This document shows, piece by piece, positions 21,126-34,307 of a DNA stretch of 64,000 nucleotides (the first letter of the stretch is position 1; every line of letters begins with the position of its first letter). The DNA is from Macrolepiota albuminosa (taxonomy: Eukaryota; Basidiomycota; Agaricomycetes; Agaricales; Agaricaceae). A program made the translations under genes and the position numbers. Below the pieces are notes generated by a model. That model ran no database searches and was not told the origin of the DNA. It saw only the letters and a program-made list of their open reading frames with translations. The stretch covers positions 3,084,947 through 3,148,946 of the forward strand of contig JAMWFC010000049.1 of NCBI GenBank assembly GCA_027475525.1. The letters run 5' to 3'.

Positions 21126-23952
21126 TTGTCAGATGACAAATACGTTGAGGTTGACGTATATGACAACAACTATTATGCCTGGGAGTCAGACTCAGAATTC
21201 ATGGGAGCTCTGATGGACTACCCGGCCAGCACATTAGACCGACTAGTTGGAGCAGCCAATGTGAAGGTGTATAAGGTACACCTTTGCAAGGCTCCGGAGA
21301 AGCTGGTAAGACTGGTGTTGAAGCGTGAGGACAAGGAGTGCCTGGCGTTGTACGTTGAGGTGGATGGCCACAAGGCATGGACATTGTGGGATTCAGGTAG
21401 TACAACTACTGGGGTGACACCTCAGTTTTGTCAAGTGCATGATATTTCTGTCAGTGAGTTGAAGGAGCCACTACTCCTTCAACTGGGTACTGTGGGCAGT
21501 CGAGCTGCAGTACAGTTTGGCATGCAGGCAAGTATTGCCTGTACAAAATCAAGGATGAAAGAGTACCTTGATGTGGCAAATTTTGATCGTTACGACATGA
21601 TTATAGGCACACCGTATATGAGAAAGCACAACATTCTGCTTGATTTCAAGAAGAATGAGATAGTGGTGGATGGCACCACCATTCCTGCTGTGCGAGTGAC
21701 CATAGATAATGGCGATGGACATCTCCATTGACACCGCACCACAGAAAAGAAGGTGCTAGTCAGGCAACACTGACTAGACGGGGGCAATAAATCACCTACA
21801 GTGGAGGATGTAGAGGATGAGGAGCAAGCTCATGTGAGCTTGCCAACAGATAGCCCAGCGGTGTTGATGCTGGAAAGCGAGGCTGTAGAGTACAAACGTA
21901 CTCTGAAGAGGGGGGAGAGCCCCAAGATGAAGTACAAAAGGCAGAGTAAGCCTGAGGACAAGTGGCCTCAGCACACGGCAAGCACAGAGTGCCAACTGAC
22001 ATCGTCGCGAGTGAAGGTTGAGGACTTAGTAACGGATGACAAACAAGGACTGATGGAGGACGAGGTGTTCTCCACACATACAAATCGGTCAATCTGGAAT
22101 CGACCGGTACCTCATCCCACGTTTGAATGGGCGTTTGATCCACAAATGCCTGCTGAGTGGAATGAGCTAGTGGCATCAATGTATGCGTGGAATGGACCAC
22201 GATGGACGGCAAAGGAGGAGTTGTATTGTCAGGCTAGTGATGATGAGATCTCGCCACTGAGTGAGGTATTCTTCGATGGACTGTCAGTGACATTGTGGAG
22301 AAGCAAGAAGGAAGTGCCTGTGCAACTACACACACTGGATGACAGTGAGCTGAGGATTACTGCCCTCAGAGAGAAGTATGGCCACCCAGCCATACAAGCA
22401 AAGCTGTCCGGGCATCCACACAAGGATGTGGACCAGAAGGGCAAAGGTAAAACCAGTGGTTTTATGAAGGAGGACATTCCGGACCTACGATTGCAGTGGC
22501 AGCAGGAATTTGGGGATATTCTGAACAGAACCAAGGAGGAGTTACCTCCCTGGCATGAGGTCAACCATGAAATCAACCTTATTGATGAGAATAAGGTGTA
22601 TAAATATCATTTGCCGCGATGTCCAATGGCGCTGCAGCAGCAGCTCCAAGACAAGACCAATCGGTACCTGAGAGCCCACTGGTGGGAGGCCCAACCGGCA
22701 TCCCAAGCTGCTCCACTATTGTGCATTCTGAAGAAAGATGGTACATTGAGGACGGCGTTGGATGCTCGCCAACGCAATGACAACACCGTAAAGGACGTGA
22801 CACCACTTCAAGTGATTCAAGAGGATGTTGCACGAGCGAAGTTCAGGTCAAAAATTGACCTGACGGACGCTTATGAGCAAGTGAGAATTCGCTTGTTGGA
22901 TATTCCAAAGACAGTGTTCTCGTCGATCATGGGAACATATGTGAGCAACATTATGCAGATAGGAGATTGTAATGCTCCCGCAACATTTCAGAGGTTGATG
23001 ACCTCCATCTTCCAGGATGTGATCGGGAGGTTTGTCCATATATATCTGGATGACATATTCATATACTCCGATTCAATCGAAGAACACGAAGAGCATCTTC
23101 GTGTCATTTTTGAGCAACTGAGGTCTAATCTGCTGTACCTCAAGTGGAAGAAATGTGAACTCTATGCCAAGACAGTAGACTGCCTTGGACACAAGATTGA
23201 CAGTCAAGGTATTCACCCTGACCAAGACAAAATTGATCGCATACACGAATGGCATGTGCCTCATAACTATAACGATGTGCAAAGATTTGTGGGACTGGTG
23301 AACTATATCGACAACTGTCTGCCTGATATTACAGCGTATACTGGACCCTTGATGTCCATCACACGGAACGGAGCTCCATTTATATGGAGACCTATACACC
23401 AACGCTGTTTTGAGATGATCAAGAGGATCTCCTCAAAGACACCAGTCATTTGTCCCATAGATCCCTGATGTGATGAGCCAATTTGGCTCATCTGTGATGC
23501 CTCAAAGACCGGAGTAGGTGCAATGTATGGCCAGGGAAGTTCCTGGCAGAATTGTTGGCCCACAGGGTTCATGTCAAGGAAGTTCACCTCGGCCCAACAG
23601 AATTATGCAGTCCATGAACTCGAAACGCTGGCGATACTTGAGGCACTCCTGAAGTGGGAAGACAAATTGATGGGATACAAGATCCACATTATTACAGACC
23701 ATAAAGCACTTGAGTTCTTCAAGACTCAAGCAATGTTGTCCTCCTGGCAATGCCGGTGGATTGACTATATGTCTTGCTACAACTTTGACATCACATATGT
23801 CAAAGGCAAACTGAACAAGGTAGCCGACTGTCTCTTGAGGTATTTCGAGAGCGATAGAGTTGGTGAACACCATGATACGCATGATTATGTCGATGTGGAT
23901 ATTTGTATTGATCCACAGGGCAATGATCTTCCATACCATCGCTACAAAGAGG
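21126..23952 (+). pseudogene. A2 pol, first part: protease, reverse transcriptase, RNase H
   Basis: Retropepsin active site LWDSGSTTTGV near 21385-21415 and the later IIGTPYMRKHN. RT blocks include ALDARQRNDNT, KIDLTDAYEQVRI and the catalytic YLDD at about 23042-23053. RNase H starts LICDASKTGVGAMYG (23490-23530) with HELETLAILEAL and the ITDHKALEFF block. In-frame stops at about 21732, 21768 and 23466 are all TGA and plausibly came from CGA. The frame runs into B2 at 23957 and resumes at 34308. Confidence 0.92.
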
Positions 23953-23957
23953 TGAAG

Positions 23958-24707
23958 TGTCAGGTTCCGCTGAATCGGGGGCTTTCCGGGAAAGCGACGC
24001 CCTTACGATGCGGACTTGATCTACGGATACTCAGGTGTCTGAAACTCCGGGGCTAAGGACTCCGGGGTTCAAGACGAGGACAGGGGGTAGTCCCGGGAGA
24101 GGGGACTAGAGTCCGGGAGTTTTGGGTTGAGGGTGGCTGAGAGTTAGAGGGGGTCGAGTCGTGAACCGGAGGTTCTAAGACGAGACCAAGTTAGTAAGTT
24201 AAGAGTCGCGAAGTGCGTACCAAAGCTTAGAGCACGCAAATACTAAGGCGTGCCAGTCGAAGCGTACCAAACAAGGCGTACCAGTCAAACAGAGGGCACG
24301 CAATATCCAAAGTAACAGTATGCAAAGTATGTAATATCAAGACTACCGAATACAACAGGGAGCTACGCTATAAGTACTACGGGGCCGGGTCTCAGGGTTC
24401 CGGGATGTCTGGGATGGGTTCCGGGGGTCATTGAGTAGCGGCAGGGGCTATATACCGGGATCGTGCGTGTGGGGCGCGCGATCAATTGGCGCGGATGGGG
24501 CCGTGATGCGTGATGCGCGATGTCCGGAGCGCGTCGCATGATCCGATCGTTGATCGGGGCTGGGGTGGCTGATGGTGGTCCCTGATGCGCGTGATGGTGG
24601 TGTCGGCGGTCGTGATGGCGGGGCGTGTCCTGTGGGGTCGGAGGGAGGGTCCCGGAGGGTGTTCCGGGGGTGTCCCGGGGTGGGCCCGGAGGGGAGGGGT
24701 CGTGACA
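23958..24707 (-). repeat. B2 3' LTR (left copy)
   Basis: TGTCAGG...GTGACA on the + strand. Contains TAATATCAAGACT at 24332-24344. Confidence 0.95.
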
Positions 24708-24721
24708 TCACCCCCCCCTCA
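24708..24721 (-). promoter_or_regulatory. B2 polypurine tract
   Basis: TCACCCCCCCCTCA on the + strand, so GAGGGGGGGGTGA in the sense of the element, abutting the 3' LTR. Confidence 0.85.
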
Positions 24722-24835
24722 GCGCCGAGACCCTCCGAGGCGCGCGTAGCCGGTGGTTCGGACCGGGGGTCAACCGTGGGATCCGGCACCTGACCTGCCA
24801 CGTATCGAAAAAAATTTTTACCGTCAAGTTCAACC

Positions 24836-26242
24836 ATGTCGCGTACGCCAACGCATTCCCCGACGCCCCCGCAAACGAACGAGGTCGCGCCCCTCATGGC
24901 GTGGGAAGCCCAGGACGCGCGTTACCGGGCTCGGCTTGACCGGGAGCGTGTGGCGGCGCTCGCCGAGCAACGTGAGTACTCCCGCGCTGCCCCTTTACCC
25001 CACTGACCTTTCCTTTTCAGAACAGCGCAACATTCCGACTCCGGAGGCGGGTCCAAGCCGGCTCCCGGAGCCTGCTCCTGCAGCGGGTTCCGGGGGTCCT
25101 TCGGGGTCAGGCCCCAGTCGTCCCGCGCCCTCCTTTGCGCGGATGACCGTGCGTCCTCCTCGTCCCCAGCCCCCTCCCCGCCCGAGATTGCCCGCCCCTC
25201 GTTTTTGTCGCTCCCGGATGGCAATAGGGACCGTGGCAGAGGTCCCGGAGGATCAACGTGTCGCGTGGGCGGGCGCCACACAGGAGCTGTTCGAGGAGGC
25301 CCTGGAGAGGCCCCGGGGGCTGCCTACTCATGCCTGGTGCGTGAGTAACGGACCGGTGAGTTGTGCCCTACCTATGATCCCCATTGCTGACTTCGGTGCA
25401 GTGCTTGCACTGCGCCCGCCGGGGGGTGCTCTGCACCTTCGAAGTCCTGAGCCCCTCGTCCCGCCGGGACACGGCCGTGTGCGAGGCTTGCCGCCTCAAT
25501 CACGAGCGCTGTTCCGTGTCGGCGCTGTGGAGGGCGCGTTCTGTCGCCCGGGAGCAGGGATGGCCGCTGGGGGGGATTACCCGGAGGATGGGGGTTGAGG
25601 AGCGTGACTGGGTGGCGGAGCCGGCGGGGGAGCCGGTGGAGCCGGTGGGGGAGGGGTCTGCAGCGCCCGCGGAGGTGCCCAGTGGGGGGTCGGGGAGTCG
25701 GGGGGTCGTCCGGGTGGGGGGCCGGGGCCGGCCCATGGTGTTGATCACGCGCCGGGCCCCTCGGTCCGTTGCCCGGGGGCAGGGGGGGCACCTGGACAAG
25801 GGGAAGCGGCGGGCGTCGCCCAGTCCCTCCCCGGGGCCTTCCAAGAGGGCGTGCCTGTCCCTGGGGACCCCTTCCCCGGTATCTCCCCCGCGCCTATCCC
25901 CGGCGGTGTTTTCCCCGCTGTCCGGGCGTCCCTTGAGCGCCGAGGTGAGGGAGCTGCAGGCGCGTTTGGAGCAGGCGGGCCGGGAGAGGGAGGAACGTGA
26001 GGAGGGGGCGAGGGAGGAGGCGGCGCTCCGGCGGAGGTTGGAGGAGGATCGCGAGGCGGCCCTCCGTCCCGGCCCCAGGATCGTGGTTCGAACGGGTTCT
26101 GGACGAGGGGGAGCCACTCCCTTCCTGGGACCAACTGGCCGAGGAGGTGTGGCGAGGACACGGTCCGGAGGGGTTGGGGGAGGAGTTCCGGGGCTGGCCG
26201 AGGGGAGGGGAGGGTGAGGGTAGTTCGGGGCCCCAGCTCTAG
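24836..26242 (+). CDS. Antisense intron-containing gene in B2: Zn2Cys6-like protein with coiled coil
   Basis: This lies on the strand opposite to B2, between the end of pol and the 3' LTR, starting 128 bp from that LTR. ATG 24836, exon 1 to 24971, intron 24972-25020 (GTGAGT...TTTTCAG), exon 2 to 25340, intron 25341-25401 (GTGAGT...GTGCAG), exon 3 from 25402. Splicing joins THAWC to CLHC in frame and completes C-x2-C-x6-C-x15-C-x2-C-x6-C, the spacing of a fungal binuclear zinc cluster with a slightly long loop. Then come a Gly/Pro-rich linker with basic KGKRRA, and a charged coiled coil (EVRELQARLEQ...RRRLEED). A one-step frame change near 26065-26085 gives the natural-looking end WFERVLDEGEPLPSWDQLAE to TAG 26240. 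Without it the frame stops at 26217. The role is unknown; a DNA-binding protein is a guess from the cluster. Confidence 0.7.
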
Positions 26243-26494
26243 GGGCCCCCGTTTTCTTGTTGCTGTCCCGTAGCTGTAGTATAGTGTACTATAGAAAATG
26301 TATATACTTGGCTGTCCCAGGTCAGTTGGAGTAAGGGGCGAAAGAGCCAAAAGAAACCGGAAAGAACATCTTGCCCAGACGCCGGGACATCACTATGAAA
26401 TGGTACTAAAAGAGAGTAAGATCTAGAAAGGAGAAGCAGAAAATATACATGGGAGTTGAATCCCTACTGAACCCAGAGGCGGGGGTTACGCCCA
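26243..26494. other. Spacer between the ends of B2 pol and the antisense gene
   Basis: The two genes converge here. The segment 26270-26320 is AT-richer (TAGTATAGTGTACTATAG, a near-palindrome) and could hold polyadenylation signals for either strand. No ORF supported. Confidence 0.4.
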
Positions 26495-29400
26495 CTACTG
26501 CCGTCTGTGAGTCCTGCGCCCGGGAAGATCGTTCCCCGGGTGCCGTTGTTGGAAGTCCCGGAGTTTGTCGAGGGCGCCTTCGAGGTTTCGGCGCGGTTCC
26601 CAAGTGTCGTCTTCCGGGCCGTATCCCTTCCACCGTACGAGGAAGTGGGGTCGTCCACGAATGTTCCGGGAGTCGAGGATGTCTTCAACCTCGTAGTGGT
26701 ATTCGTCCTCGACCTCGACCGGGGGAGGGGGCTCGGGGCGTCGTTTGGGGAAGGGATCCGGGGGGTGTCATTCCAGGAGGCGGACGTGGAATACCGGGTG
26801 CAGACCTTTTAGTCCCGGGGGGAGCTCGATCTTGTAGGCGTGGGATGAGACCTTCTTCAATATTTTGAACGGGCCGAGGCGCTTGTGATCGAGTTTTGGA
26901 GAGGGCCGGCGGGTGCGGAGGTGTCGTCGATCTAACCATACCTTTGTCCCGGGGGCCCAGTCGGGGGTGTCTTCCCGTTTCTGGTCGGCGTGTTTCACGT
27001 AGGCCCGGTTCGCGGTGTCGATCTCTTCCCGGAGAAACTCGTGAAGGGATTGGAGATCCCGGGCGACCTCATGGGCGGCGTGCGACGGGATGTCCCGGAG
27101 CGAGAGTGTCAGTCGAGGGTGGTATCCCTTGTTGGCAAAGAAGGGTGATACCCCGGTGGCAGAGTGTGGCGTGTTGTTGTAGGTGAACTCGGCCAGGGGG
27201 AGCTCGGCGCGCCAGTCGTCCTGCAAGTAGTTGACGTACAGCCGGAGGTACTGCTTGAGGGACTGGTTGACCCTCTCGGTTTGGCCGTCGGTTTCGGGGT
27301 GGTAGGCGGTAGAGAGGTTAGTCTTTACTTCAAGTGCCTTACACAGGGAAGTCCAAAACTTGGACACGAAGAGAGGGCCACGGTCGGAGACGATGTCGTC
27401 CGGGAGTCCATGTTTGGCGAAGACGTGCTCGAGGAACAGTCGGGCGAAGTCCGGGGCGGTGTCCGTGGTGTGGCAGGGTAGAAAGATGCCCTGTTTGGTT
27501 AGCCTGCACACAACGACGAGAATGGCATCGAACCCTTCAGACTCCGGGAGTTCGACGATGTGGTCCAGGGATATGGAGGACCAGGGGCGTCGTCCGACTG
27601 GCAGGGGTTTCAGGAGTCCGTATGGCCGGTGTCGGGGGACCTTGGCCCGGAGGCAGGGTTCGCATGATCGAATGTAGCGGGTCACGTCCTTCTTCAACCC
27701 TGGCCAAAAGTAAGTCCGGGAGATGAGCTGGAGGGTCTTACGTATTCCAGGATGTCCCCGGAGCTTGTGGTCGTGGTGTTGACGGAGGACGTCGTAGCGA
27801 AGTCGGGTGTGATCTGGGACGTAGATGCGGCCATCCCGGAGGAGGAGTTTTTTGTCGGGGGACAGGGAGAAGGCGGGGTCCCGGTCGGTTCCATCAGGGG
27901 GGTTGCGGGGGTCGTGATCGGTGAAGTACTTGTCTCGGGGGGCGCGGCGAATCTGACTCAGGGTCCCTTCCTCGTTTAAGATCAGTAAGGCATTCAAATG
28001 TTCGGGAGGGATCACCACGCGATGATTGAACGCATTACGTTCCGCCTCGAACGACTTCTTGGGGTAGACGTCCGGACGGCGGGTGAGGGCGTCGGGCTTG
28101 GCGCCAAGTCGTCCCGGGCGGTATTGGATCGTGAAGTCGTACTCCGAGAGGATCTCGGACCATCGGGCCTGCCGTCGACTGAGTTGCTTGGTCGTGGTGA
28201 AGTACTGCAGGTTATTATGATCCGAGTAGACCTGGATCCGGTGCCGGGCTCCCTCGAGATAGGCCCGCCATTGCTTGAAGGCTTCAACGATGGCGAGGAG
28301 TTCCTTGTCGTAAATGTTGTAGTTGAGCTCGGCGTCGATCATGGACCGGGTGTAGAAAGCGACTGGCCAGGGTTCCCCACCGTCAGATTCCATCTGCGAG
28401 AGAATCCCGGCGATGGCGTAGTCGGAGGCGTCGCATTCTAGGATGATCGGGAGGGCCGGGTCGTAGTGCCGGAGTACCGGGGCGACTGTGAAAGCCTCCT
28501 TGAGCAGGTTAAAGACGCTCTGGCACTTACTGTCCCAGTTCCAGGCGACGTCCTTGCGCGTGAGCCGGTTGAGGGGTTTCGTAATCCCGGAGTAGTTGTC
28601 TATAAACCTCCGGTAGAAGTTAGCGAAACCCAGGAAGGACTGTACTTCCTTGACGTTCCGGGGCTGCGGCCAGTTGACGATGGCCTCGACCTTGTGGGGG
28701 TCCATGCGAACGCCGTTCGGGGATACTATGACGCCAAGATACTCAACCTCTTCCGTATGGAATGAACACTTCTCGGGCTTGGCGTGGAGGTTGTGCTCCC
28801 GGAGGCGTTCGAGGACTTGCCGGACATGCTTCTGGTGATCCTCCGGTGAGTCGGAATAAATGAGGATGTCGTCCAGGTAGACGATCACAAAGACGTCGCT
28901 CATGTCGTGGAAGATGTCGTTCATGAAGTATTGGAACGTGGCGGGGGAGTTAGTCATTCCGAAAGGCATCACAAGATACTCAAACAGACCATACCGCGTG
29001 CGGAACGCGGTTTTCCACTCGTGTCCCGGGGCGATGCGGACGTTGTTGTAACCGGAGCGGAGGTCGATTTTCGTGTAGACCTTGGCACTGCGGAGTCGAT
29101 CGACCAGATCGCCGATGAGCGGGAGCGGGTAGCGGTTCTTCTTGGTGATCTTGTTGAGTCCCCGGTAGTCGACACAGAGTCGGAGCGAGCCGTCCTTCTT
29201 CTTGGCGAATAGAACCGGGGCTCCGGCGGCGGAGGCGGAGGGTCGGATGAATCCCTTACCGAGCATTTCGTCGAGGTAGTCCTTGAGAGCCCGGAGTTTG
29301 ACCTCTGACATGTTGTAGACCTTGCCGAAAGGGGGGGTGGCTCCTTCCTCGAGGTCGATGGTGTGATCATAGGGGCGGTGAGGGGGGATCTCCTTGGCGT

Positions 29401-30886
29401 CTCCTTCGGAGAATACGTCAGCGAACTCGTGATATTCCGGGGGAACTACTTCTCGGAGGATCTGCTCCTTGGTCTTTGGTTCCGGGGGAATGGCGTCCCC
29501 TCGTAGGTGTTCTTCCGGGAGAGAAGGCGAGGTGTGCAGCTGAAACGTGGGAGTTCCATCCCTCATGAGGCGGGCGAAGGGGGCAGCCCCAATGATTCTG
29601 ATGTCGAGTGCGCTCGGGTCGATCGGAGTTGCGGAAGCATCGGCCGGAGCGGGTGCGACGCGTGTCTGAGACCGGCAGGGGTAGTTCGGCCCTTTGTACT
29701 TGTTCCGAGGAATGTTTGGGGGTCGATCGGGGGCCTTGCGGTCTCGGACGGGCGTGGGTGGTGCATGCGTGGGGGGCGCGGCAGTCGTCCCGGGGGCGTC
29801 GGGCGCCGGGTCGTCTCCTAGGGCCCGGAGGTGCACGATGGCCGAGGGGTGGTCTTCGGGTCCCGGGAAGGTCATGGTGAGCGTCCTCCAATCGATATCG
29901 GGGTTTGTGTCGCGCAGCCAGGGTAGTCCCAGCACCATCGGGGTCGATTCGTGAAGTCGCGTGACCAGGAAGTCGGAAGTGAACTCGTAGCTGTTGTCCA
30001 GGGTCACGCGTCCCGAGTGAGACCTTCGGATGGGGCCGGATGAGGAGGGGGTGCCGTCGAGGCGTTGCAGGCGGAGGGGCTGGTCGAGGGAGTCGTGGGG
30101 GAGGTCGAGAGCGTCGCTGATGAATACTCCGGTGGCTCCGCTGTCGATGAGGGCCGAGATTGGTCCTGGGGCGCCGTCCAGCCTGGCATTGATGACGAAG
30201 GATCGGGATGAACGGGACTGGAGTCCCGGGGGTGGTGGAGGCCCGTCCTTCGGGGCAGGGTTGGGGGAGTGGGGGATGTCGAAGGGGAGTTGCTGGTCGT
30301 CGGGGGTCGGGTCCCGGGTCAGGCGAAGGGTGAGGTGTCGCCAATCGATGCGGGGGTTAGTGTCTCGGAGCCACGGGAGCCCTAGGACCAGGGGTGCGGA
30401 AGGGTGGAGTTTGGTTATCAACATCCGGAGGGTGTGAGTCTGTCCGTTGGCGAAGGTAACGGGCATACGCACAAAATGAGTGATGTTCCCCGCCGTAGAG
30501 GCGTCGCCGTCGAAGAGGCAGAGCCGTACCGGGACCGGGAGTCGCTGGGCGGGTTCCGGGGCGAAGGTAGACCATGCTTCATCGATGAAGTTGTCGGTGG
30601 CGCCACTGTCGACGAGGGTGTTGAGGGGAGTTCCGGAGGGGGTGAGGCGGGTTTTGAGGAGGAGGGAGTGCGAAGAGTGGGAGGGTAGGTAAGCCGTGAG
30701 GGTGTCCTGTATGAGTACCGTAGAGCGAAGGTGTGAGACCGGGGCGGAGAAGACGTCGGGGTCGATTCCGCGATTTAGGGCGTCTTCCGGGTCTAAATCG
30801 CCGGGTCGTTTTCCGAATACTTGTAGGTGGCGTCCTCCCCTTCGAAGGTCCAGGTGGCACGTCCCATGACCTGTCGTTTGGGGCAC
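26495..30886 (-). CDS. B2 pol polyprotein (two proteases, RT, RNase H, integrase, chromodomain)
   Basis: Open from 30886 to a TGA at 26768 (1372 codons). The same frame continues past it to a TAG at 26495 and encodes a chromodomain ([10 protein letters not shown]...[17 protein letters not shown]), so the TGA probably replaces TGG. Landmarks by residue: retropepsin 1 DSGAT at 93 with [11 protein letters not shown] at 168; retropepsin 2 DSGAT at 248 with [11 protein letters not shown] at 319; [19 protein letters not shown] at 562 and YLDD at 670; RNase [12 protein letters not shown] at 817; integrase H1040, H1045, C1075, C1078 and D1108, D1168, E1204. It overlaps gag by about 90 bp in the -1 frame, so expression probably needs frameshifting or an equivalent. 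Makes and integrates element cDNA; chromodomains steer Gypsy integration to marked chromatin. Confidence 0.95.
29880..30640 (-). other. Tandem duplicated retropepsin domains in B2 pol
   Basis: Two copies about 155 residues apart, each with the LVDSGAT/LIDSGAT catalytic loop, a DG turn, and the flap-distal [16 protein letters not shown](H/T)LT block. Both keep the catalytic Asp. Confidence 0.85.
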
Positions 30887-33522
30887 TCGGAGATGAAATG
30901 GTCTTTCTCACCACAGAGTATGCAGACACCCTCCCTTCTCCGTCGTTCCTGCACATCCGTCGGGACTTCGATCCAGGGTCGTCCCTTCTTCTGAAGCCGG
31001 TTGGCCCGGAGGGCCTCCTCGTCCCGTTCGTCGTCGAAGTCGAAGTTTTCGGGGTCTTCCGGGGGTTCCTCGGGGCTTGGCGCGTCGTCCGGGTCTTGGG
31101 CGGCCACGGCGGCGTTGAGCTGGGCCTGGGGGCGGGTGCCGCTGCCGGGGTTAGCATTGGGCGGGCCGCGACTCACCGGGGGTCGGCCGCCGGGGAACGC
31201 GGGGGGACCGGGGTTTCGACCTTGGGGGTTGAGGGCTTCGCCGGAGGGCCAAGGGGGTCCTCCTCTGGGATTCCAGGGGGGTCGGGAGTTCGAGTACTCG
31301 CTGCGGTCTTCCCAGTAACGTTGGTCGATCTGCATGACGAGGGCCTTGTATCCGTCATAGGAGGGTTGTTTCGGGGCGAGTCGGAGGACGTCCTTGATAC
31401 GTTGTGGGAGGGCGCGGCGGAGGGCGTACTGGAGGGCGCTGTAATTCCAACCTGTCTCGTAAGCTTCCTTTTCAAAACGTACGATGAAGGTAGTGAAGCG
31501 TTCTTCAGAGCGCATCCGGAGGTTGAAGAGGTTGTCCTCGGCCTCGGCCACGGTGTCGTATATCCCGAATTTCCCGGAGAACTCGTCAACGAAGGCTTGC
31601 CAGCGAGCGAGTGCCGGGTTGTTGGGGTCGAACTGGATGAGGGCTGTGTAGTGATCGAAGGCGATCCCCTGGAGGTATGATGCGGCAAAGGCCACCCGGG
31701 AGCTGTCAACCTGAAACGTGAGCGGCTTTGCCTGGAACGTATTGAGACACTGAGTGAGGAAGGTACGCCATTTTCAGGGGTCCCGGCCCGTGAAAGCGTC
31801 GGGCTTTTGGATGTCCAGTCGTCCTTCGCGGGCGAGGGCGTCGCGAGCGTCGTCCGGTCCGGCAGCGTTGCGGGGAGGGGGGCCAGCATTGTAATAGTAG
31901 TAATAGTGATTACCCCCCCCTCCTTGAGGAGGAAAAGCACCAAGGGCGGGGCCCCACCCGCCGGGAGGTCCTCCTCCGGGTGGCTCACCTGGGGGTCCAC
32001 GCCTGGGAGGTCCGTTGTCCCAAGGGGGTTCGTTCCTGCCAGGAGGGGGCCCGGGTCTCCACGCAGGGAGTGGCGGAGGTGGAGGGCCTGGGGGTCGTCC
32101 TCGAGGTTCAGCTGGGGGTGGCGGAGGCGGTCGGGGAGGGTTCGGCGGTGTCGGGTCGGGCGGAAGGGGGTTAGGTGCTGGGTCGGGTGCCGGGTTGCGC
32201 GGGGGACGTTCAATCCGGGAGGGCCGGGCTTGCATCGGGGGTCGCGGGGGGTTCCGTAGGTCGAAGTGGGGTGGCGGATCGCGGCGGAAGTTGCGTTCCG
32301 GAGGGGCCGGGGCGGACGTGGCGGGCGGTGCGGGTGCCGGGGCAGGCGCGGGCGTGGGACGTTGTTCGTTGTTGTCGCGCGTGAGCTCGTCAATGTAGCA
32401 TAGCGTGTCGTCCGTACTAGGAGTATCCACCCGGGCTCTACCGGGGTTCGTCGGGGCCGGGGGTCGGGCATTGTCTGTTCGCGGGAGGGGTTCCAGGGGT
32501 CTTTGAGGCTGTCCCCAGGTTTCAAAGGTACTAGGAACGGAGTTAGCCCTGCGGCGAGTTGACAAGCCTACCGTGCGAGCAGCGGGTTGGTCGAAGAGGC
32601 CTCCCGTGGGGTTGAGGGACCGTAGTATGGCTGAGGCGTTCTGCCGTTCTTCCCGTTGCCGTTGCTCCGGAGTGGGGACCGTGGGGGTTGCCGGGACTGC
32701 TGAGGCCGGTTCCGGGGGTTCCCGTCGAATGTGAATCGAGCGACCTGGGTCCGCGGGGTCGTTGAGGGGCCGAGGGGAGGGGGACGTGTGGACTTCGTCG
32801 AGCAGTTGCTGTAATTCTTCCCGGAGGATCGTATTGCGCCTATACTTTACCATGGTTTGCTCCGGGAGTTCTCCTCGCGTGAGGCGATCCCCGAATTCGA
32901 CCAGGCAGTGAGCCCATTCCTCCGGAGTGCCTTCGAAGTTGTCGTGTCCGAATTCCACGAGCAGCGTCCTTGTCCGTTGCGCAAAGTCCTCCGGTGAGAT
33001 CCTGAGGGAGTGGAGTATCTCGTCCCGTTGCCGTTTGTACTCCTCGAGGCGTCGTCGTCCCATTGGCGAGGGAGGGGTTCGAGCGGGTGGAGCGGCGGCC
33101 GGGTAATGACGAGGGGGGTAGTCGGGGTAGAGGGGTCCTCGGGGTTCTCGGGGTTGGGGGACGGGGCGCTGGTAACCGTAGTAGGGGGTGGGTGCAAAGG
33201 GGCCCTCGCTGGGGGGAATCAGGCGAGGCCCACTGGGTACAGGAGGGGTCTCTGGCAGGCCCCCGGGAATGCTCCGGTACGAGGGGACCTCCACGGGTCG
33301 TGCCATGGCTAGGTTGGGCGGAGGGGCCCAACTGGCTGAGGGCCCCAGATCATAGAGGGATGGGTTGGGGGCCCAGTGGCGGTGGAGGTACTGAGGTTCG
33401 TATGGGAGGGGTGGGTAGACAGGGCGGGGGGTCTGCGCGGAGTAGTGGTCGGGTACCGGGCGTCCGTAAGGGTCGGTCTGGTACCCCGTGGGGTAGTAGG
33501 TGTGAGTATACGTAGCCATCAA
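30793..33522 (-). CDS. B2 gag polyprotein, one nonsense codon
   Basis: ATG 33520-33522 to TAG 30793 is a single frame of 910 codons interrupted only by TGA at 31771-31773 (GRDP*KWRTF), most simply a TGG-to-TGA change because W-K-W reads naturally. Order: Tyr/Pro-rich N-terminus (TYTHTYYPTGYQTDPYG), helical region with FGHDNFEGTPEEWAHC, a long Pro-rich linker, capsid-like region (YLQGIAFDHYTALIQFDPNN) and one zinc knuckle [14 protein letters not shown] near 30890-30930. The start lies 31 bp inside the 5' LTR edge. Forms the virus-like particle. Confidence 0.92.
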
Positions 33523-33539
33523 GAACGGTGTAAGGAAAG

Positions 33540-33552
33540 AGTCTTGATATTA
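33540..33552 (-). promoter_or_regulatory. B2 primer-binding site, complementary to its own LTR
   Basis: TAATATCAAGACT in element sense, touching the 5' LTR with no gap. Its exact complement AGTCTTGATATTA lies in the LTR at 33927-33939. No similarity to a tRNA 3' end (TGG start absent). Confidence 0.85.
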
Positions 33553-34302
33553 TGTCAGGTTCCGCTGAATCGGGGGCTTTCCGGGAAAGCGACGCCCTTA
33601 CGATGCGGACTTGATCTACGGATACTCGGGTGTCTGGAACTCCGGGGCTAAGGACTCCGGGGTTCAAGACGAGGACAGGGGGTAGTCCCGGGAGAGGGGA
33701 CTAGAGTCCGGGAGTTTTGGGTTGAGGGTGGCTGAGAGTTAGAGGGGGTCGAGTCGTGAACCGGAGGTTCTAAGACGAGACCAAGTTAGTAAGTTAAGAG
33801 TCGCGAAGTGCGTACCAAAGCTTAGAGCACGCGAATACTAAGGCGTGCCAGTCGAAGCATACCAAACAAGGCGTACCAGTCAAACAGAGGGCACGCAATA
33901 TCCAAAGTAACAGTATGCAAAGTATGTAATATCAAGACTACCGAATACAACAGGGAGCTACGCTATAAGTACTACGGGGCCGGGTCTCAGGGTTCCGGGA
34001 TGTCTGGGATGGGTTCCGGGGGTCATTGAGTAGCGGCAGGGGCTATATACCGGGATCGTGCGTGTGGGGCGCGCGATCAATTGGCGCGGATGGGGCCGTG
34101 ATGCGTGATGCGCGATGTCCGGAGCGCGTCGCATGATCCGATCGTTGATCGGGGCTGGGGCGGCTGATGGCGGTCCATGATGCACGTGATGGCAGTGTCG
34201 GCGGTCGTGATGGCGGGGCGTGTCCTGTGGGGTTGGAGGGAGGGTCCCGGAGGGTGTTCCGGGGGTGTCCCGGGGTGGGCCCGGAGGGGAGGGGTCATGA
34301 CA
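33553..34302 (-). repeat. B2 5' LTR (right copy)
   Basis: TGTCAGG...ATGACA on the + strand. In element sense a TATA-like CTTATAG (33962-33968) lies about 25 bp before AGTCTTGATATTA (33927-33939), which would place the RNA start at the priming motif. Confidence 0.95.
33927..33939 (-). promoter_or_regulatory. Predicted RNA 5' end / self-priming motif in B2 LTR
   Basis: AGTCTTGATATTA in element sense, perfect 13-nt complement of the PBS. Also present in the 3' LTR at 24332-24344 and in B1, B3 and E. Confidence 0.75.
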
Positions 34303-34307
34303 TGAAG

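Follow-up and report, generated by a model that had tools for sequence, protein, structure and literature searches.

Antisense genes on the 3′ LTR side include, among the deltaretroviruses, HBZ of HTLV-1, which is spliced and encodes a bZIP-type protein, and APH-2 of HTLV-2. In fungi, Boty-like retrotransposons of the ascomycete Botrytis cinerea reportedly carry an additional antisense gene, brtn, which is said to have been described by Zhao et al. in 2011. Two accounts of such genes describe a deltaretroviral antisense gene that is read from the 3′ LTR side and has a nuclear product, and present antisense ORFs located between pol and the 3′ LTR (aORF-3R) as established in plant Gypsy elements (PMC7264820, PMC11963269); examples include gene23 of maize Grande, rice RIRE2, and Retand of Silene, and an antisense gene of Boty is also listed (PMC7264820). 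According to the same accounts, the product of gene23 is nuclear and the gene has its own promoter, while the antisense proteins of Retand contain a TRP28 domain and are predicted to bind DNA (PMC7264820, PMC11963269). Here, we analyzed a window (i.e., the whole stretch of 64,000 nt under study) from Macrolepiota albuminosa, for which a preliminary description had proposed that a retrotransposon encodes an intron-containing gene on the strand opposite to gag-pol.

The carrier element and the gene copy in the window

The element carrying the antisense gene is a Ty3/Gypsy LTR retrotransposon, with TG..CA LTR ends, a 5-bp target-site duplication, and domains in the order PR-RT-RH-IN. The left target-site duplication (TGAAG, 23953–23957) was read from the sequence, and the right one (34303–34307) is identical to it in every letter. 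The two LTRs (750 bp each, minus strand) are 98.4% identical by BLAST; the 3′ LTR of gag-pol (23958–24707), which lies on the upstream side of the antisense gene, was trimmed to its TG..CA ends from a BLAST span of 23958–24708, and the 5′ LTR (33553–34302) was placed by BLAST and by reading its ends. On the minus strand, pol (26768–30907, from Pfam and the ORF) encodes an aspartic protease, reverse transcriptase, RNase H, and integrase, with Pfam matches to aspartic protease, RVT_1, RNase H, integrase H2C2, and a Tf2-1-like SH3 domain; rve is below its Pfam cut-off. The gag region (30793–33549, minus strand) consists of two abutting stop-to-stop ORFs (33549–31774 and 31773–30793), the second of which contains a stretch of 14 residues that we take to be a zinc-knuckle-like motif. 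Between the 3′ LTR and the antisense ATG lies a leader of 128 bp (24708–24835, plus strand), which starts with the complement of a purine tract adjoining the LTR, presumably the polypurine tract, and continues with a well-conserved block; the leader is 80–99% identical to 18 other copies, and the mean match to the window is 0.96–0.97 in 24690–24749 (44 sequences). A separate observation concerns an array of GCGTRCCA motifs in a well-conserved part of the LTR (24215–24283, and likewise in the other LTR); the motif occurs four times in the upstream stretch of the window and two to seven times in 41 of 43 other stretches, with no occurrence in L042 and L045. The array is a candidate set of binding sites for a host or element regulator.

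The sequence strongly supports a genuine intron-bearing gene on the plus strand, opposite to gag-pol and between pol and the 3′ LTR. Its ATG at 24836 follows the LTR end at 24707 at the distance of 128 bp given in the preliminary description, and its orientation is likewise as described there. Exon 1 (136 nt, 24836–24971) was delimited by alignment and sequence, and intron 1 (49 nt, 24972–25020), exon 2 (335 nt, 25021–25355), and intron 2 (46 nt, 25356–25401) by alignment of copies, the second intron also by the junction in a Termitomyces protein (P0001); both introns read GTGAGT..CTGAC..CAG. Of the two GT-AG introns of 49 and 61 bp proposed before, the first thus stands as it was, while the second is shortened to 46 nt. 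Exon 3 begins at 25402, and its first codon is also the first of a cluster with the pattern C-x2-C-x6-C-x15-C-x2-C-x6-C (25402–25512; CLHCARRGVLC-x15-CEACRLNHERC), which is present in the copies and in P0001 and lies directly after intron 2, as had been noted. With a loop of 5–20 residues allowed, the six-cysteine pattern matches elsewhere in the window only at two overlapping places near 4.3 kb, in an unrelated Cys/Ala/Ser-rich stretch, and it did not occur in 60 Markov-shuffled windows.

The copy in the window is incomplete. Match coordinates show that it lacks approximately 290–370 bp at 26065/26066 that L012, L018, L028, and L029 possess; the missing DNA takes in intron 3 together with the adjoining parts of exons 3 and 4, and the full protein is therefore probably no longer made from this copy. 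Exon 3 extends, by ORFs and match coordinates, from 25402 to 26065, where it meets the deletion junction (26065–26066), and its open frame runs on out of register past the junction to a stop at 26215–26217. The remnant of exon 4 (26066–26242), which ends in the conserved C-terminus ..SSGPQL and a stop, was recognized by tblastn (26054–26239; 85% identity to residues 477–538 of the L014 protein). Of the span of 24836 to 26242 first assigned to the gene, the start is retained, but the frame of exon 3 stops at 26217, and 26242 is the stop of exon 4 in another frame.

Gene structure, linkage, and selection among copies

Copies were sought in the genome (100 Mb, 129 contigs), and the alignment comprises the window and 39 loci (40 rows) picked by similarity to the window as the best of 691 candidates. 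Omission of L047, which repeats the window, and of L011 and L043, which are identical to L010 and L042, respectively, left 37 non-redundant copies with the window among them; L023 and L024, which are 99.96% alike, were both retained. L047 (C114, about 3.11 Mb) is identical to window positions 22700–28254 over 5555 bp, of which 1258 bp lie outside the LTR, and the two stretches lie about 350 kb apart on one contig; this is a very recent segmental or assembly duplication.

As predicted from these sequences, the gene of the family has four exons and three short introns, the third of which (44–46 nt) precedes exon 4. Exon 1, an intron of 49–52 nt, exon 2, and an intron of 46–48 nt align across the 37 copies, and open copies run via exon 3 and the third intron into an exon 4 with a conserved end. 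Longer introns in L040 (126 nt) and L041 (123 nt) result from 77-bp duplications; the aligned ATG is absent in L030 and L040, and a gap of two bases occurs at this place in L019. An uninterrupted four-exon frame was found in eight of the 40 rows (L014, L016, L021, L023, L024, L029, L034, and L041), and, outside this alignment, splicing was applied to L048, L049, L050, and L053 (L051, L052, and L054 were left unspliced), which showed open four-exon frames in the first three and the loss of two splice sites in L053. The gene is not open over its full length in 31 of the 40 aligned rows, window included, in keeping with a set of copies that is largely dead; some of the frame breaks may be assembly joins. 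The preliminary description had left it to other copies to show whether stops, lost cysteines, or lost splice sites would expose the gene as spurious; the alignment of copies bore the gene out, in that its frame, cysteines, and splice borders are kept.

Borders derived from the alignment were counted over 39 sequences (the window and 38 loci), with GC accepted as a donor; donor 1 is kept in 38 of these, and the other three borders of introns 1 and 2 in all 39. A finder that required GT..AG located intron 3 in 35 of the 39, so that the borders of this intron are no independent count; the four misses are the window, where it is deleted, L026, L028, and L030. Intron lengths (49, 50, 51, or 52 nt for intron 1; 46, 47, or 48 nt for intron 2; 44, 45, or 46 nt for intron 3) vary by non-multiples of three, yet the open copies remain in frame, and CTRAY-like branch sites were present in 106 of the 107 introns scanned. 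Intron 2 has tandem donors. The downstream one (25356) reads GTGAGT in 34 of the 37 copies, GTAAGT in two, and GCAAGT in one, whereas the upstream one (25341), located 15 nt earlier, reads GTGAGT in 11 copies and has lost its GT in six. P0001 matches 25218–25355 and then 25402–25590, a break that places the junction at the 46-nt intron; because P0001 breaks at 25355/25402, two species agree on the exon 2/3 junction. Donor conservation and the P0001 junction rule out the 61-nt form with donor 25341 as the regular intron, and the 46-nt form is preferred, although both donors may be used. L028, whose donor at intron 3 is GTGAGC, has an open frame of equal length if this intron is left in. The subfamily of L048–L050 has introns of 51, 45, and 45 nt, and its frame is open across two unspliced introns in L048 and across three in L049 and L050; intron retention is therefore possible in this subfamily, where unspliced RNA would remain largely translatable.

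To avoid sampling gene-bearing copies only, places in the genome were also anchored on the last 630 bp of pol (40 places scored of 676 candidates). Of these 40 copies, 39 have the gene next to pol, the window and its duplicate L047 included: coordinate comparison placed an antisense-gene match next to pol on the opposite strand in 30, L055 and L057 added two, and L059–L063, L065, and L066 added seven, while L056 and L058 confirmed two places already counted. The remaining place, L064, has no antisense gene within 1.2 kb of pol. Among 46 loci, which include three repeats of another copy (L011, L043, and L047), all 46 have an LTR on the strand of the gene, and 42 have pol on the other strand; pol is absent from the examined flank in the remaining four. 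A search with exon 4, in which 150 of 773 candidates were scored, matched those 150 at 75–100% identity. The gene thus matches an aORF-3R in its place between pol and the 3′ LTR, in its antisense orientation, and in its presence in most copies.

Substitution patterns indicate that the antisense gene is under purifying selection. Pairwise dN/dS by the Nei-Gojobori method was 0.19–0.33 in all 21 pairs of seven open copies. The 37 copies, broken ones included, were read in the alignment columns of the window for exons 1 and 2 and for exon 3 up to its nucleotide 459. The predicted frame has 0.24 stops per copy and a median dN/dS of 0.25, for which 589 of the 666 pairs fell inside the dS limits; frameshifts were not counted. 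Under pair filters looser than those for the predicted frame, four control frames (two other plus frames and two minus frames) presented a dN/dS of 1.29–1.50; one minus frame had a dN/dS of 0.40 but also 4.0 stops per copy, the behavior one would predict for the mirror frame. The last 160 codons of pol gave 0.12 (360 pairs, 31 copies), so that conservation of the antisense gene is weaker than that of the pol C-terminus, with a median that is clearly below 1; such conservation, resembling that of other proteins of the element, is a further trait shared with an aORF-3R. Codon position 3 varies two to three times more than positions 1 and 2, and variation in the intron cores (0.19 and 0.31) is about equal to that at third positions (0.21–0.28).

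Some features of the copies probably reflect the assembly. We observed 80 tandem duplications with a period of 77 bp in L009–L066 (e.g., L040, L042, L030, and L017), none at periods of 52–76 or 78–139 bp, and three to eight at each period of 20–51 bp; the window has no exact 77-bp duplication and one 77-bp pair of 97% identity, at 407–560. These duplications look like an assembly artefact, i.e., unmerged k-mer overlaps, 77 presumably being the k value of the assembler, and repeat copies in this genome may, given such joins, be chimeric. When five segments of 18 copies were compared with the window, the antisense gene (24836–25900) diverged most in 13 copies, with best matches of 77–94% identity, as against 92–99% for the leader in 16 copies (83% in L034 and 80% in L053) and 94–100% for pol in the 17 copies with a match. 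Of the 13 copies with 77-bp duplications, 12 have their lowest identity in the antisense gene, as does one of the five without; among the latter, L049 shows the contrast, and L014, L016, L023, and L034 do not. Because the contrast is concentrated in copies with 77-bp duplications, chimeric assembly is likely to be the source of much of it. Artefact as a source of the gene itself was rejected, since L014, L016, L023, L034, and L049, which are without any long 77-bp duplication, carry the full open gene.

The predicted protein and its homologue in Termitomyces

Open copies encode predicted proteins of 522–556 aa that consist of a proline-rich N-terminal part, the six-cysteine cluster, a well-conserved SVSALWRA-like stretch, basic patches, a helix-prone stretch, and a C-terminal part. 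All six cysteines are present in 36 of the 37 copies, the exception being a Cys to Tyr change at the fourth, as well as in P0001. The conserved basic patches (DKGKRRAS...PSKRA; 25795–25851 in the window), which we regard as nuclear-localization-like, include GKRRAS and GPSKR, both invariant among L029, L014, and P0001. The charged helix-prone stretch (25936–26067, cut by the deletion in the window) is a probable coiled coil, as judged from its sequence and from the model of P0001, in which a long helix (residues 258–331; block pLDDT 64–86) occupies the same position in an otherwise low-confidence model. By pN/pS, constraint is strongest around the cluster and in the C-terminus (0.16–0.21) and weakest in the coiled coil (0.60).

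P0001 matched with an E value of 3.9e-48 and 38% identity over 72% of the query, and shares the cysteines, the basic patches, and the C-terminal part (WAREHRLLLDG, RRN..APGSW). A homologue search with the cluster region only gave no match at E ≤ 1 among 75 candidates, and a profile search with three sequences gave none at E ≤ 0.01 among 7989 candidates scored; both also missed P0001. As two of three protein searches failed to recover P0001, such searches miss real relatives. Together with the short introns and the type of element, the relative in Termitomyces suits a fungus of the mushroom type.

Assignment of the cluster to a known family is less clear. The pattern CX2CX6C-loop-CX2CX6C of PF00172 is present in 36 of 37 copies and in P0001, but the loop between the halves has 15 residues, whereas that of a classical Zn(II)2Cys6 cluster has about 5–12 by a PROSITE-style rule. 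Four of five proteins matched Zn_clus (PF00172), all below its cut-off of 21 (18.3, 13.0, 15.5, and 10.3 bits), and the best of these matches span only part of the motif; the L029 protein had no Zn_clus match, its sole Pfam match being a weak one to a coiled-coil family. Neither a bZIP nor a fungal transcription factor middle domain was among the Pfam matches up to E 1 of the L014, L029, and P0001 proteins, which therefore do not resemble HBZ in this respect. AlphaFold models of P0001 and of the window cluster are of low confidence (mean pLDDT 52 and 61); Foldseek with the latter model against the PDB gave four matches, none of them significant (best E 6.5), and a PDB sequence search gave ten (best E 0.12), coiled-coil-like or due to chance. 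The DNA-binding regulator suggested in the preliminary description is plausible from the cysteines, basic patches, and probable coiled coil, but the Zn_clus scores stay below the cut-off and the predicted structures are of low confidence.

Possible roles of the product and comparison with known systems

Taking the gene, its intron borders, the selection on it, and its association with the element as read from the sequences, we lean slightly toward the view that it is an accessory gene whose spliced antisense RNA would encode a nuclear, dimeric, nucleic-acid-binding protein that tunes gag-pol through the element's own DNA. Under this reading, a separate antisense RNA would start in or near the 3′ LTR and be spliced and translated in the cell; the product would enter the nucleus via its conserved basic patches and dimerize by the coiled coil, and the six-cysteine cluster would bind nucleic acid in a zinc-dependent manner. 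The most likely target would be the LTR/leader DNA of the element, with an effect on gag-pol transcription similar to that by which deltaretroviral antisense accessory proteins are thought to tune sense transcription; the antisense RNA may also have an effect in addition to that of the protein. Retrotransposition normally removes introns from copied sequence. The introns of this gene would outlast it because of their antisense orientation, since the packaged genomic RNA would hold only their complement and no splice sites, an explanation already offered in the preliminary description and consistent with the strand on which pol is found. The retention of three introns across many copies is strong natural evidence for a separate spliced antisense transcription unit and suggests that the protein matters to the element. 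A narrower claim, that this Gypsy lineage of mushroom-type fungi encodes its own Gal4-like zinc-cluster regulator, acting on its own LTR and made from spliced antisense RNA, is tentative and falls a little short of an even chance. Its extension, in which the gene of such a self-encoded LTR regulator would also pass between otherwise similar elements in the form of divergent allelic cassettes kept up by selection, is improbable; if true, such cassettes would be expected of a self-specific system of copy-number or immunity control.

The protein could instead serve replication, as a zinc-binding nucleic-acid chaperone or as a nuclear-import factor of the pre-integration complex; the cluster, basic patches, and probable coiled coil suit this role equally well, Zn_clus scores below the threshold favor it, and a similar role has been considered for plant antisense ORFs (PMC7264820). 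We nevertheless regard it as unlikely, as coding in the sense direction within the gag-pol RNA would be simpler and the gag region presumably already supplies a knuckle-like motif. Divergence of the antisense gene beyond that of the other segments in 13 of 18 copies, together with the fast evolution of the coiled-coil section, is what one might expect if the protein countered silencing by the host, be it through RNAi, heterochromatin, or DNA methylation, or targeted another host factor. The proteins show, however, no similarity to known suppressors in Pfam or the PDB and are under purifying selection overall, and the presence of the divergence contrast in only one of the five copies without 77-bp duplications lowers the odds both of this reading, which we consider improbable, and of the cassettes. 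Exchange of antisense-gene cassettes would explain the contrast and is unsupported once the copies with 77-bp duplications are set apart.

Two further readings concern where the ORF comes from. Introns and a zinc-cluster-like motif are features of host genes and would fit a captured host transcription factor gene riding along without benefit, or a gene of a nested transposon; the constant position beside pol and an LTR on the gene's strand at every locus rule out a host gene within a nested element, and with purifying selection and a relative in another genus they make this reading very improbable, so that capture without benefit is largely refuted as an explanation of the gene's upkeep, although the gene may have originated by capture. 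Long open frames do occur on both strands of this GC-rich region, as a chance ORF, with any antisense RNA being non-coding, would have it, but we give this almost no credence, in view of frame-specific selection, splice borders conserved despite variable intron length, conserved cysteines, and the homologue in Termitomyces.

Comparison with Gal4-type Zn(II)2Cys6 factors shows the same CX2CX6C..CX2CX6C order of six cysteines and a probable coiled coil further on; the present protein differs in its 15-residue loop, its scores below the Pfam cut-off, the location of the cluster in mid-protein, the lack of a middle domain, and its encoding by a retrotransposon. In annotation, gene models of such architecture can thus be transposon genes and not host transcription factors. 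Like HBZ and APH-2, the gene is antisense and on the 3′ LTR side; unlike these genes of animal viruses, for which expression has been shown and which encode bZIP proteins without a zinc cluster, it is predicted from sequence. Boty, with brtn, is reportedly also an LTR retrotransposon of a fungus that has an accessory gene in antisense. In the best matches from the open-access literature, judged by titles and the starts of abstracts, no spliced or zinc-cluster antisense gene was found in a basidiomycete Gypsy element. The closest systems are the plant aORF-3R, which share the position, the antisense orientation, the presence in most copies, and a suspected nuclear or DNA-binding product, but have TRP28 or SMC where the present gene has a six-cysteine cluster, three introns, and a fungal host; the word "intron" is absent from both accounts of the plant genes (PMC7264820, PMC11963269). 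Antisense accessory genes are established in some plant Gypsy elements, in the deltaretroviruses, and in Boty; the present gene, with its three introns, adds to them a predicted spliced gene that has a zinc-cluster-like domain, and makes the function of these genes testable in a fungus.
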